DNA of 64,000 bases from Methanomassiliicoccaceae archaeon. Lineage in GTDB: Archaea; Thermoplasmatota; Thermoplasmata; Methanomassiliicoccales; Methanomethylophilaceae. The stretch lies in NCBI GenBank assembly GCA_016284295.1, contig JAEEOP010000041.1, positions 1-64,000 of the forward strand, written 5' to 3'. The translations under genes were made by a program, and so were the position numbers. Shown here one piece after another: positions 55,012 through 58,708 of the stretch; the first letter of the stretch is position 1, and each line of letters starts with the position of its first letter. The notes beneath the pieces were generated by a model. It ran no database searches. It was given only the letters and a program-made list of their open reading frames with translations, and was not told the origin of the DNA.

Positions 55012-56688
55012 TCACTTCAGTCCGACGATGGTACCGTCGTCCTTGAGGTCCATCCTCATGGCCGCAGGCACCTTCGGCAGACCGGGCATGAGGGTCAGGG
55101 TACCGCACTCGGGAACGATGAATCCCGCACCGGCGGAGATGTTGATCTCCCTGACGTGGAGCTTCCATCCTTTCGGGACCCCCTTCAGGGTGGACACGTC
55201 GGACAGGGATGCCTGCGTCTTCGCGATGCATATGGGGAGCTTCCCGAATCCGTCCTTCTCGTAGCCGGCGATCCTCTGCTCCACGAGCGGGTCGTATGTG
55301 ACTCCGTCCGCCCCGTAGATGTTCTTGGCGATGATCTCGATCTTCTCCTTGATGGGCTTATCAAGATCGTACAGGAACTTGAAGTCGGTCTTCTTGGTCT
55401 CGATGGTGTCCACAACGGTCTGGGCGAGCTCCTTGGCTCCTTCTCCTCCCTTCATGAACCCGTCGTTGAAGGCGACGGCGACGCCGAGCTCCTTGCAGTG
55501 GTCGCGGATGAAGTCCATCTGCTCCTGAGTGTCCTGGGCGAAGTGGTTGATACCTACCACGACAGGTACCCCGTAGGAGCTCATGTTCTGGATGTGCTTG
55601 TCAAGGTTGCAGATACCCTTCTTGAGGGTCTCCATGGTCAGAGTGGACTCGTCCTCGAGGACTCCTCCGCCGTGTGTCATGAGCGCTTTCACCGAAGCGA
55701 CGATGACGACGCAGGACGGCCTGAGGCCGGATTCCCTGCAGACGATGTCCATGAACTTCTCCCCTCCGAGGTCGGAGGCGAAACCCGCTTCCGTCACGAC
55801 ATAGTCGCCGAGCTTCAGCGCGGTCTTTGTGGCGATGATCGAGTTGTTTCCGTGGGCGATGTTGGCGAAGGGGAATCCGTGGACGAACACGGGCTGTCCC
55901 TCCAATGTCTGGACGAGGTTGGGGTTAATCGCATCCTTGAGGATGACCATCATGGCTCCGACGCAGCCCAGGTCCTTGACGGTGACGGGCTTGTTGTCAT
56001 AAGTGTACGCAACGACGATCCTCTCGAGCCTGGCCCTGAGGTCGGCGCGGTCCTTGGCAAGGCACAGGATGGCGGCGATCTCGGATGCGGATGTGATGAT
56101 GAATCCGGACTCGTGGGGCACTCCGCCCTTGATCTTGTCCTTTCCGAGACCTGTGACGATGTTCCTGAGCTCGCGGACGTTCATGTCCACGGTCTTCCTC
56201 CACACGACGCGTGCGGGGTCGATCTGGTGGACGTTGTCCCTGACGAGCTCGTTGTCCACGATGGCGGACAGCAGGTTGTGGGCCGCCGCGACGGCATGGA
56301 TGTCCCCGGTGAAGTGGAGGTCGATATCCCACATTGGGTATACCTGGGCATAGCCTCCTCCGGTCGCTCCGCCCTTAATACCGAAAGTGGGTCCAAGGGA
56401 GGGTTCCCTGAGGGCGCCGACGACCTTCTTTCCGATGCATCCGAGTCCCTCGACGAGACCGATGGATGTGACGGTCTTCCCCTCTCCGGCGGGAGTGGGT
56501 GTTATGGCCGTGACCATGATGAGCTTTCCGTCCTTCTTGTCCTTGAGCTTCTCCAGGTGCTCGATCGGGACCTTGGCGATGTACTTGCCATAAGGACTGA
56601 TGTCATCCTCGGTGAGTCCGAGTTTGGCGGCGATGTCCTTGATCGGCGCGGGTTTCGCCTGGTAGGCGATCTCGATATCCGTTAACAT
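55012..56688 (-). CDS. fhs: Formate-tetrahydrofolate ligase
   Basis: The protein is 558 aa, a complete Fhs. It shows the ATP site ITPTPAGEGKTVTSIGLVEGL, LREPSLGPTFGIKGGATGGGYAQV, and HNLLSAIVDNELVRDNVHQIDPARVVWRKTVDMN. It makes 10-formyl-THF from formate and ATP. Its presence suggests tetrahydrofolate-based one-carbon supply (for purines or with SHMT) rather than sole use of methanopterin. It is monocistronic. Confidence 0.95.
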   Translation of the reverse strand: MLTDIEIAYQAKPAPIKDIAAKLGLTEDDISPYGKYIAKVPIEHLEKLKDKKDGKLIMVTAITPTPAGEGKTVTSIGLVEGLGCIGKKVVGALREPSLGPTFGIKGGATGGGYAQVYPMWDIDLHFTGDIHAVAAAHNLLSAIVDNELVRDNVHQIDPARVVWRKTVDMNVRELRNIVTGLGKDKIKGGVPHESGFIITSASEIAAILCLAKDRADLRARLERIVVAYTYDNKPVTVKDLGCVGAMMVILKDAINPNLVQTLEGQPVFVHGFPFANIAHGNNSIIATKTALKLGDYVVTEAGFASDLGGEKFMDIVCRESGLRPSCVVIVASVKALMTHGGGVLEDESTLTMETLKKGICNLDKHIQNMSSYGVPVVVGINHFAQDTQEQMDFIRDHCKELGVAVAFNDGFMKGGEGAKELAQTVVDTIETKKTDFKFLYDLDKPIKEKIEIIAKNIYGADGVTYDPLVEQRIAGYEKDGFGKLPICIAKTQASLSDVSTLKGVPKGWKLHVREINISAGAGFIVPECGTLTLMPGLPKVPAAMRMDLKDDGTIVGLK

Positions 56689-58027: not shown

Positions 58028-58070
58028 TTAGGTAAACCTAACATTTAAATATGATTTAGTCATTCCTAAA
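58028..58070 (+). promoter_or_regulatory. DtxR-type iron box and promoter of the upstream feo leader transcript
   Basis: TTAGGT-AA-ACCTAA (58028-58041) is a palindrome of the DtxR/IdeR type. It is followed by TATA-like TTTAAATATG and by TTTAG-TCATTC-CTAAA (58055-58070). A transcript would begin close to the ATG at 58074. The same palindrome type recurs at feoA. Confidence 0.6.
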
Positions 58071-58073
58071 ATC

Positions 58074-58322
58074 ATGCACGGAAGATTGTGCTACGTCGTC
58101 GGGAAGAAGGTCAAGCGCTGATTCCCGCCCGACATCAGACGAAGATCTGGTAACCTCACCGCCCGATGAAGATCGGGAGGAAACGCCTTAGGATGACGAA
58201 CAGAAAGCAGGACCGATTCCCTAACGGGAGAACCTCTGAAGGATGCAACCATATCAATCATCGGCCCGGTCGGATGCGAGTCATAATTAGTAACCTCAAC
58301 CGGAGGTCGGGGGGCCTCCGGT
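58074..58322 (+). ncRNA. Candidate iron-regulated structured RNA upstream of feoA
   Basis: This 250-nt stretch has its own TATA and iron box but no ORF longer than 15 codons (58074-58121, MHGRLCYVVGKKVKR). It can fold: GTCGGG (58098) pairs with CCCGAC (58128); CCCGAT-GAAG-ATCGGG (58162-58177); and ACCGGAGG-(8)-CCTCCGGT (58299-58322). The sequence TAACCTCA occurs just before two of these hairpins (58151 and 58291). It may be a small RNA, a leader, or a remnant of a mobile-element RNA. I could not match it to RNase P or SRP RNA. Confidence 0.4.
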
Positions 58323-58391
58323 AATTTCCCATTCTGCTCTTGGATGATATATCCACTATTTTGTACGGTTCAAAAATTTTGAATCATTCCT

Positions 58392-58422
58392 AAATTATAA
58401 ATACAAACTTAGTTTAACCTAA
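58392..58422 (+). promoter_or_regulatory. feoA promoter with iron box
   Basis: TATA-like AAATTATAAATAC is followed by TTAG-TTTAAC-CTAA (58409-58422), a near copy of the box at 58028. It lies between TATA and the feoA ATG at 58427, so a bound repressor would block initiation. TCATTCCTAAA precedes the TATA, as it also occurs at 58060. Confidence 0.6.
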
Positions 58423-58426
58423 AACT

Positions 58427-58708
58427 ATGAGTCTAGACATTTCGACAGGTGATCGCGCAACACCGATCGAAAGCTTCAGGGGACCTACGGTTCCCGTCTC
58501 GCTGCTTAAACAGGGGGATGCTGGGGTCGTCATGAAGATCTCAGGGAAGGAAGAGGTCCGTAAGTTCCTGGCAGGACTCGGATTTATAGCCGGCACAGAG
58601 ATCAAGATCGTTTCGTTCAACAAGACAGGCGTGATCCTCGATGTCAAAGGATCGAGGATAGCCATCGACGGGAACATGGCGACCAGGATCTACGTGTCCA
58701 GTGAGTGA
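58427..58708 (+). CDS. feoA: FeoA-domain protein 1
   Basis: The protein is 93 aa with an SH3-like FeoA fold: VPVSLLKQGDAGVVMKISGKEEVRKFLAGLGFIAGTEIKIVSFNKTGVILDVKGSRIAIDGNMATRIYV. It has a 20-residue N-terminal extension. FeoA supports Fe2+ import by FeoB. The ATG lies about 30 bp after the TATA box. A second FeoA follows 4 bp downstream. Confidence 0.9.
   Translation: MSLDISTGDRATPIESFRGPTVPVSLLKQGDAGVVMKISGKEEVRKFLAGLGFIAGTEIKIVSFNKTGVILDVKGSRIAIDGNMATRIYVSSE

Follow-up and report, generated by a model that had tools for sequence, protein, structure and literature searches.

Iron-sparing small RNAs (sRNAs) have evolved several times in bacteria. IdeR, the regulator assigned to one of them, is a member of the DtxR family. 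RyhB, PrrF and MrsI follow a common logic, in which an sRNA repressed by a metalloregulator cuts the synthesis of iron proteins in iron starvation, and MrsI is predicted to be controlled by IdeR (PMC9410917). IsrR of Staphylococcus is iron-repressed as well; several of its anti-Shine-Dalgarno regions, which contain C and are single-stranded, lie next to or within hairpins, and the RNA aims at the start regions of iron-protein mRNAs and is confined to one lineage (PMC9410917). IsrR and the iron-sparing FsrA of Bacillus subtilis, whose C-rich motif binds the Shine-Dalgarno sequence, both reach their sites via C-rich single-stranded regions (as summarised in PMC9410917). Among archaea, sRNA154 and sRNA41 of Methanosarcina mazei act in trans by masking the ribosome-binding sites of their targets (PMC5867862). 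In iron-starved Haloferax, ferredoxins and other Fe-S proteins fall about two-fold, with DtxR-type proteins considered as the regulators (PMC11349517). A search of published, openly accessible papers returned no iron-sparing sRNA in archaea.

Here we analyze a 64,000-nt stretch of DNA (the window) from contig C45 of a 1.86-Mb archaeal MAG (G000), together with a genus set of 31 genomes. Judging from the sequences, the locus in front of feoA very probably encodes an autonomous, trans-acting, DtxR-controlled iron-sparing sRNA of about 255 nt that blocks ribosome binding. Such an RNA is likely the first of the iron-sparing kind in Archaea; it would have evolved independently within one lineage of rumen and gut Methanomethylophilaceae, as a functional analog of RyhB, FsrA and IsrR controlled by a DtxR-type regulator, and may include a built-in micropeptide.

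The predicted RNA resembles RyhB, FsrA and IsrR in its mode of action but not in sequence. IsrR is bacterial, Fur-controlled and directed at targets such as nitrate respiration enzymes, whereas the archaeal RNA, which has no sequence similarity to it, combines the seed AUUAGUAACCUC with a TATA promoter, DtxR-type boxes and ferredoxin, rubrerythrin and flavoprotein targets. FsrA is likewise Fur-controlled, is aided by FbpA/B/C and shows no homology to the archaeal RNA. RyhB, PrrF and MrsI belong to another domain of life, and no relation to them in sequence or structure was found (Rfam negative). The two M. mazei sRNAs serve the nitrogen response and differ in sequences and targets (PMC5867862).

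Results and Discussion

Promoters and gene setting

The gene order in the window is fhs, a gene for a 288-aa membrane protein, the RNA element and feoA1-feoA2-feoB (Table 1). A sequence-only reading of this region had described a DtxR-type palindrome with a TATA box, and the palindrome is indeed present as an exact copy. The single box of that reading is, however, one of a pair: two iron boxes, predicted repressor sites, flank the TATA box of the RNA promoter, and this arrangement is kept in relatives. When one mismatch is allowed, the 64-kb window contains three iron boxes compared with 0.56 expected, and these are the pair at the RNA promoter and the feoA box at 58409-58422. The strict form, TTTAGKNNNNCCTAA, occurs three times in the entire G000 genome, with two of the occurrences at the RNA locus. 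The separate feoA promoter with its own iron box, which had also been proposed, holds up with both boxes and a TATA box.

The membrane-protein gene between fhs and the RNA is unique to G000; in relatives, fhs adjoins the RNA. Tandem second copies of feoA-feoB follow the first in G003, G007, G012, G024 and G028 (L017, L020, L021, L024 and L039), and in such loci the RNA, where present, stands before the first copy only.

Table 1. Positions of the RNA element, its predicted parts and the neighboring genes (window coordinates)
Feature	Position	Strand	Sequence and remarks
fhs	55012-56688	minus	precedes the membrane-protein gene and the RNA element
Membrane-protein gene, 288 aa	56950-57816		weak CobS-like match, under the Pfam cut-off
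Iron (DtxR-type) box 1	58028..58041	+	TTAGGTAAACCTAA, exact 14-bp palindrome 5' of TATA; kept in relatives
RNA promoter TATA box	58044..58051	+	TTTAAATA; aligned in 7/7 intact copies
Iron box 2	58056..58069	+	TTAGTCATTCCTAA, over predicted transcription start region; TTTAGTYRTTCCTAAA kept in 7/7
Structured sRNA gene (probable), ~255 nt	58072..58328	+	same place in 8 genus members; covariation; without Rfam match
Possible 15-aa ORF	58074-58121		predicted product MHGRLCYVVGKKVKR in G000
Hairpin P1	58076..58091	+	GCAC/GUGC, MFE fold; overlaps the possible ORF
Antisense site 1 (predicted)	58148..58157	+	UGGUAACCUC, perfect 10 bp with flavoprotein leader GAGGUUACCA; particular to G000
Hairpin H2	58159..58180	+	CCGCCCGAU-GAAG-AUCGGGAGG in G000; covariation
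Long-range helix P3	58193..58284	+	58193-58217 with 58260-58284; encloses conserved GGAUGYAACC loop (GGAUGUAACC)
Antisense site 2 (predicted)	58231..58250	+	AACCUCUGAAGGAUGCAACC in P3 loop; AACCUC/AGCCUC and GUAACC recur here in relatives
Main antisense seed (predicted)	58286..58297	+	AUUAGUAACCUC, unpaired, anti-Shine-Dalgarno; linker before H3; complement GAGGUUAC(UAA) at iron-gene starts
3' hairpin H3	58299..58322	+	ACCGGAGGU-CGGGGG-GCCUCCGGU, then UAAUUU and AU-rich tail
feoA promoter	58381..58422	+	box AATCATTCCTAA (~58381-58394), TATA TTATAAATA (~58396-58404), box TTAGTTTAACCTAA (58409-58422)
feoA1	58427..58708	+	Pfam FeoA 1e-12; neighbor with own promoter

Structure and covariation of the RNA

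The 5' end of the RNA was placed about 25 nt downstream of the TATA box and its 3' end directly past the last hairpin. Folding of the window RNA is only modestly better than that of shuffled sequences (z = -1.78), so that the finding would be weak on the window alone, and the convincing evidence is comparative. Over the seven intact copies, 95.5% of the cells in the structure alignment are paired, with changes on both sides in 23 of 29 pairs. The covariation score of 0.826 compares with 0.269 +/- 0.037 in shuffles and with 0.09-0.23 when slid.

The individual helices contribute to this picture in different ways. For H2 and H3, the alignment involved no choice of partners; in it, 98% of H2 cells are paired and eight of nine pairs display changes on both sides, while H3 is paired in 100% of cells with both-side changes in four pairs. 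The stem of P1 differs in sequence among relatives, for instance CCGAC/GUCGG in G011. As automatic MAFFT alignments missed P3, the alignment was trimmed by hand, and the both-side changes in 11/11 P3 pairs are partly circular, the partners having been picked by eye. Single-sequence folding provides a check on this helix, with 13-21 pairs around the loop motif in 7/7 species compared with shuffle means of 7-10.

In six of the seven intact copies, H2 consists of a 9-bp stem with a GGGG loop. This tetraloop, closed by UC...GG, is invariant in the six RNA-bearing species while the stem is variable, and it is possibly a protein site.

The sequence-only reading had pictured about 250 nt of structured, mostly non-coding sequence in which GTAACCTCA is repeated before two hairpins. 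This description proved accurate, the repeat being found at 58150 and 58290, each ahead of a hairpin (58159-58180 and 58299-58322). It overlooked the third helix (58193-58284), which closes the middle part, and a third AACCUC at 58231, inside the P3 part. The number of anti-Shine-Dalgarno segments (AACCUC or AGCCUC) in the RNA may reach three and varies by species. The linker before H3, AUUAGUAACC(UC), is the most conserved part of the RNA, with AUUAGUAACC invariant in 7/7 copies and CUC present in 6/7. The unpaired fraction of the linker AUUAGUAACCUC is 0.54-0.88 as compared to 0.40-0.51 for the whole RNA, and it exceeds the RNA average in 7/7 species. Hence, a conserved antisense segment is exposed within a structured RNA, as in sRNAs that block ribosome-binding sites.

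H3 is the probable 3' end or terminator, and scoring of classical intrinsic terminators at H3 revealed no classical U-run terminator. The lack of a strong intrinsic terminator after H3 would fit a long feoA leader that acts in cis, as a 5' UTR or attenuator for feoAAB, reads into feoA and has no targets in trans, as would the position of the element directly 5' of feoA and its shared orientation in every RNA-bearing species. However, a TATA box and iron boxes that belong to feoA itself follow about 90 nt downstream, and this iron-box promoter is retained in genus members without the RNA. A cis model also leaves the complementarity to distant iron-protein starts, described below, unexplained. 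We therefore regard a feoA leader as very unlikely and treat the element as an autonomous, trans-acting RNA.

Distribution in the genus

The element lies between fhs and feoA in eight of the 31 genus members (G000, G003, G007, G011, G012, G018, G024 and G030). BLAST with the element recovered the promoter and the 3' hairpin in relatives with conserved spacing. A covariance search in related genomes, which the sequence-only reading had put forward as a check, found the element in the same eight, with covarying helices: over 102 family genomes, the carriers score E values from 3e-14 to 5e-7, and the next best match has 0.02. Weaker matches of this model, at E 0.02-0.8 in further genera of the family, were judged to be noise. 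Most non-carrier genus members with the fhs-feoA junction display a shorter spacer containing the feoA iron-box promoter only.

In the fhs tree, the eight carriers group with G022 in a single clade with strong support; G022 is without the element at the feo locus, and its genome is 80% complete. The RNA was thus gained once and probably lost in G022. This clade and the restricted distribution point at a lineage-specific RNA gene that is about as old as the clade. The RNA is also present in Thermoplasmata archaeon SIG9 and SIG4 and in Candidatus Methanomethylophilaceae archaeon RGIG4496 (roe-deer omasum), with copies matching those of G018, G012 and G011, respectively. A pattern scan of genome contigs for ATTAGTAACC followed by a hairpin returned 23 stretches, three of them in these Thermoplasmata/Methanomethylophilaceae MAGs; the remaining ones, from unrelated bacteria, were taken as chance.

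A known RNA family or the end of an insertion sequence (IS) had been named from the outset as identities that would speak against a new sRNA, and we found neither. At permissive thresholds, Rfam gave a single chance-level match near the element for the window and none for the six homologous loci, and a DNA search of a plasmid collection with the element gave no match. A mobile-element end or repeat without a functional RNA might account for the patchy distribution in the genus, and an IS110-type element does lie within the G030 copy. Against this stand the single copy in the G000 genome, the same syntenic position in eight species, the compensatory changes and the lack of a plasmid-collection match; moreover, the IS breaks up the element in G030, and the other copies are free of it. 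Syntenic conservation thus disfavors this origin, which we consider extremely improbable in comparison with a functional sRNA gene. The insertion itself (DEDD_Tnp_IS110 and Transposase_20; L006:1731-2771) separates H2 from P3 in a locus that is nearly identical to that of G018 around it, and hence represents a natural disruption of the RNA.

Candidate targets of the linker

Seven RNA-bearing genomes were searched in full for GAGGTTAC, the complement of GUAACCUC, at 0-9 nt before an ATG, with no genes preselected; matches within ORFs were removed by hand and genuine starts counted by hand. All five genuine starts in G000 belong to iron proteins, namely two 2x[4Fe-4S] ferredoxins, a rubrerythrin, an FMN_red-family flavoprotein with the CX2CX2CX5C motif of the Fe-S flavoprotein type, and a hybrid-cluster protein of the prismane family. 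Both ferredoxin leaders, GAGGTTACTAAAATG, form 11-12 perfect base pairs with the linker. All five targets pair with the linker more strongly than any of the 61 gene leaders of the window, a comparison that reflects strength rather than discovery as the five were preselected by the octamer. The hybrid-cluster protein gene was rejected as a conserved target, its site being present in G000 only.

Among the other carriers, G007 has such starts at two ferredoxin genes, at those for rubrerythrin and flavoprotein and at an unrelated gene. The starts found are those of ferredoxin, rubrerythrin and flavoprotein in G018, of rubrerythrin and flavoprotein in G003, and of rubrerythrin and a transporter in G011; G024 has none. 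Leaving G012 aside, iron genes make up 15 of 17 genuine starts in six RNA-bearing genomes; in 15 RNA-less genomes the figure is 2 of about 11 (Fisher p = 4e-4). The pattern is also rarer there, with 43 raw matches in the 15 RNA-less genomes compared with 67 in the seven RNA-bearing ones. The variant GAGGTTAT, which includes one G-U pair with the seed, precedes six genes for ferredoxin, rubrerythrin or flavoprotein among the starts of RNA-bearing species, and a single clear non-iron gene besides; its carriers include the ferredoxins of G003, G011 and G012, the rubrerythrin of G024 and the flavoprotein of G012. Complementarity to the start regions of iron proteins thus exceeds that to other genes, as in iron-sparing sRNAs. 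The clade-restricted covarying structure, the invariant unpaired anti-Shine-Dalgarno motif and the iron-protein targets obtained without preselection together support the iron-starvation sRNA that the sequence-only reading had proposed.

G012 behaves differently. Its main seed reads GUAACCAUG in place of GUAACCUC and has lost CUC (L044 / L050), and none of its approximately five GAGGTTAC starts belongs to an iron protein. This RNA has a further site, GAUAACCUC, and the ferredoxin and flavoprotein leaders carry GAGGTTAT. The pattern is suggestive of seed drift, although not significant.

Leaders of orthologous iron genes

Rubrerythrin leaders of RNA-bearing species contain GAGGTTAC in 6/8 cases, with GAGGTTAT and GAGGTTTAT in one each, compared with GAGGTTAC in 1/21 RNA-less relatives; for the flavoprotein, the counts are 5/6 (and GAGGTTAT in one) versus 0/18, and both p-values (4e-4 and 1e-4, respectively) ignore shared ancestry. 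The RNA-less flavoprotein relatives look leaderless and are more distant homologs. Ferredoxin leaders separate less, with mostly GAGGTTACTAA, GAGGTTATTGAA or close forms in RNA-bearing species and mostly GAGGTAAT in RNA-less ones. Exceptions among the RNA-less species are GAGGTTAT in the ferredoxin of G013, G014, G019, G023 and G027, GAGGTTAC in the rubrerythrin of G015 and GAGGTTAC (GAGGTTACTAA) in the ferredoxin of G022. Within the leaders of RNA-bearing species, GAGGTTA is invariant and followed by C or T, while the preceding 18 nt are variable.

These data need to be weighed against coincidence, in which the RNA is real and GAGGUUAY is a lineage-specific Shine-Dalgarno flavor inherited in orthologous, highly expressed genes. 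Since the RNA-bearing species form one clade, they are not independent samples, and the exceptions above place GAGGTTAT or GAGGTTAC before the same genes in some RNA-less relatives. When RNAs were swapped among species, pairing with a species' own targets was no better (permutation p = 0.29), so that co-evolution finer than the common seed is not supported and the apparent shift of seed and target in G012 is only an anecdote. On the other hand, the same octamer occurs before non-homologous iron genes and before paralogous ferredoxins while the rest of their leaders have diverged, which argues against mere inheritance, and it is nearly absent from other genuine starts of the same genomes. The usual archaeal anti-Shine-Dalgarno is AUCACCUCC. 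The UAC of the target does not gain pairing with AUCACCUCC but completes the sRNA duplex; the octamer deviates from the best archaeal Shine-Dalgarno exactly at the positions that match the RNA, which again argues against mere inheritance. The RNA-less flavoprotein relatives, finally, have no such site. Coincidence is thus quite unlikely in our view, and we retain the iron-protein mRNAs as predicted targets of the sRNA.

Proposed mechanism

With plentiful iron, a DtxR-family repressor would occupy both iron boxes that flank the TATA box of the RNA. Upon iron scarcity the repressor would be released and the RNA transcribed along with feoAAB. The unpaired anti-Shine-Dalgarno segments, chiefly AUUAGUAACCUC, could then pair with GAGGUUAC/U where ribosomes bind the mRNAs for ferredoxins, rubrerythrin, the Fe-S-type flavoprotein and, in G000, the hybrid-cluster protein. 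Initiation would be blocked, translation of iron proteins would drop and iron would be spared. We infer transcription, iron repression and its regulator, pairing in vivo and the direction of the effect from features read in the sequences: the conserved structure, the clade restriction, the promoter boxes, the complementarity to iron-gene starts and the conservation of leaders. As the Shine-Dalgarno sequence to be covered lies just a few bases from the start codon, repression is likelier than activation, and an invariant unpaired stretch complementary to iron-protein starts suggests that the RNA probably switches those proteins off under iron scarcity. The archaeal RNA offers a named regulon, a conserved seed and iron boxes, and natural controls exist in the RNA-less relatives and in G030 with its IS-split copy. 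This makes it directly testable whether methane-producing gut archaea control their use of iron through an RNA.

A possible micropeptide

The sequence-only reading had offered, as an alternative to an sRNA, a leader with a 15-aa peptide, and had suggested looking for a conserved short ORF. Positionally equivalent ORFs are found in 5/7 species with the common core Y-(I/V)-(I/V/K)-G, whereas the ORF is missing in G011 and very different in G007. Given these two species and the autonomous appearance of the element, the peptide does not qualify as the main function. A dual-function RNA that combines pairing with a mostly basic micropeptide of 15-34 aa could draw on the shared core; the predicted products in relatives are MMQYIIGQKRNRRQC, MMQYIIGQKRKATRRL, MMQYIIGPRRR... 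and MCYIKGCERLR.... Yet in addition to G011 and G007, the lengths vary, two ORFs pass through hairpin H2, the nucleotides behind the common core also build hairpin P1, and the differences are too few for a test of codon constraint. We consider this second function rather unlikely.

Iron boxes elsewhere

The third strict iron box of G000 (C11:6360-6374, L354) precedes a gene for a SAM-dependent methyltransferase by about 60 nt. In other genus members, the box-TATA-box arrangement is also found near position 1500 of L005, L008 and L012, before ATPase-like genes (MDGFVGREEQL...GRMRLGKTALLQKF), and in L011 before a TatD-like hydrolase. By their promoter sequences, the ATPase-like and TatD-like genes are possibly further iron-regulated genes.
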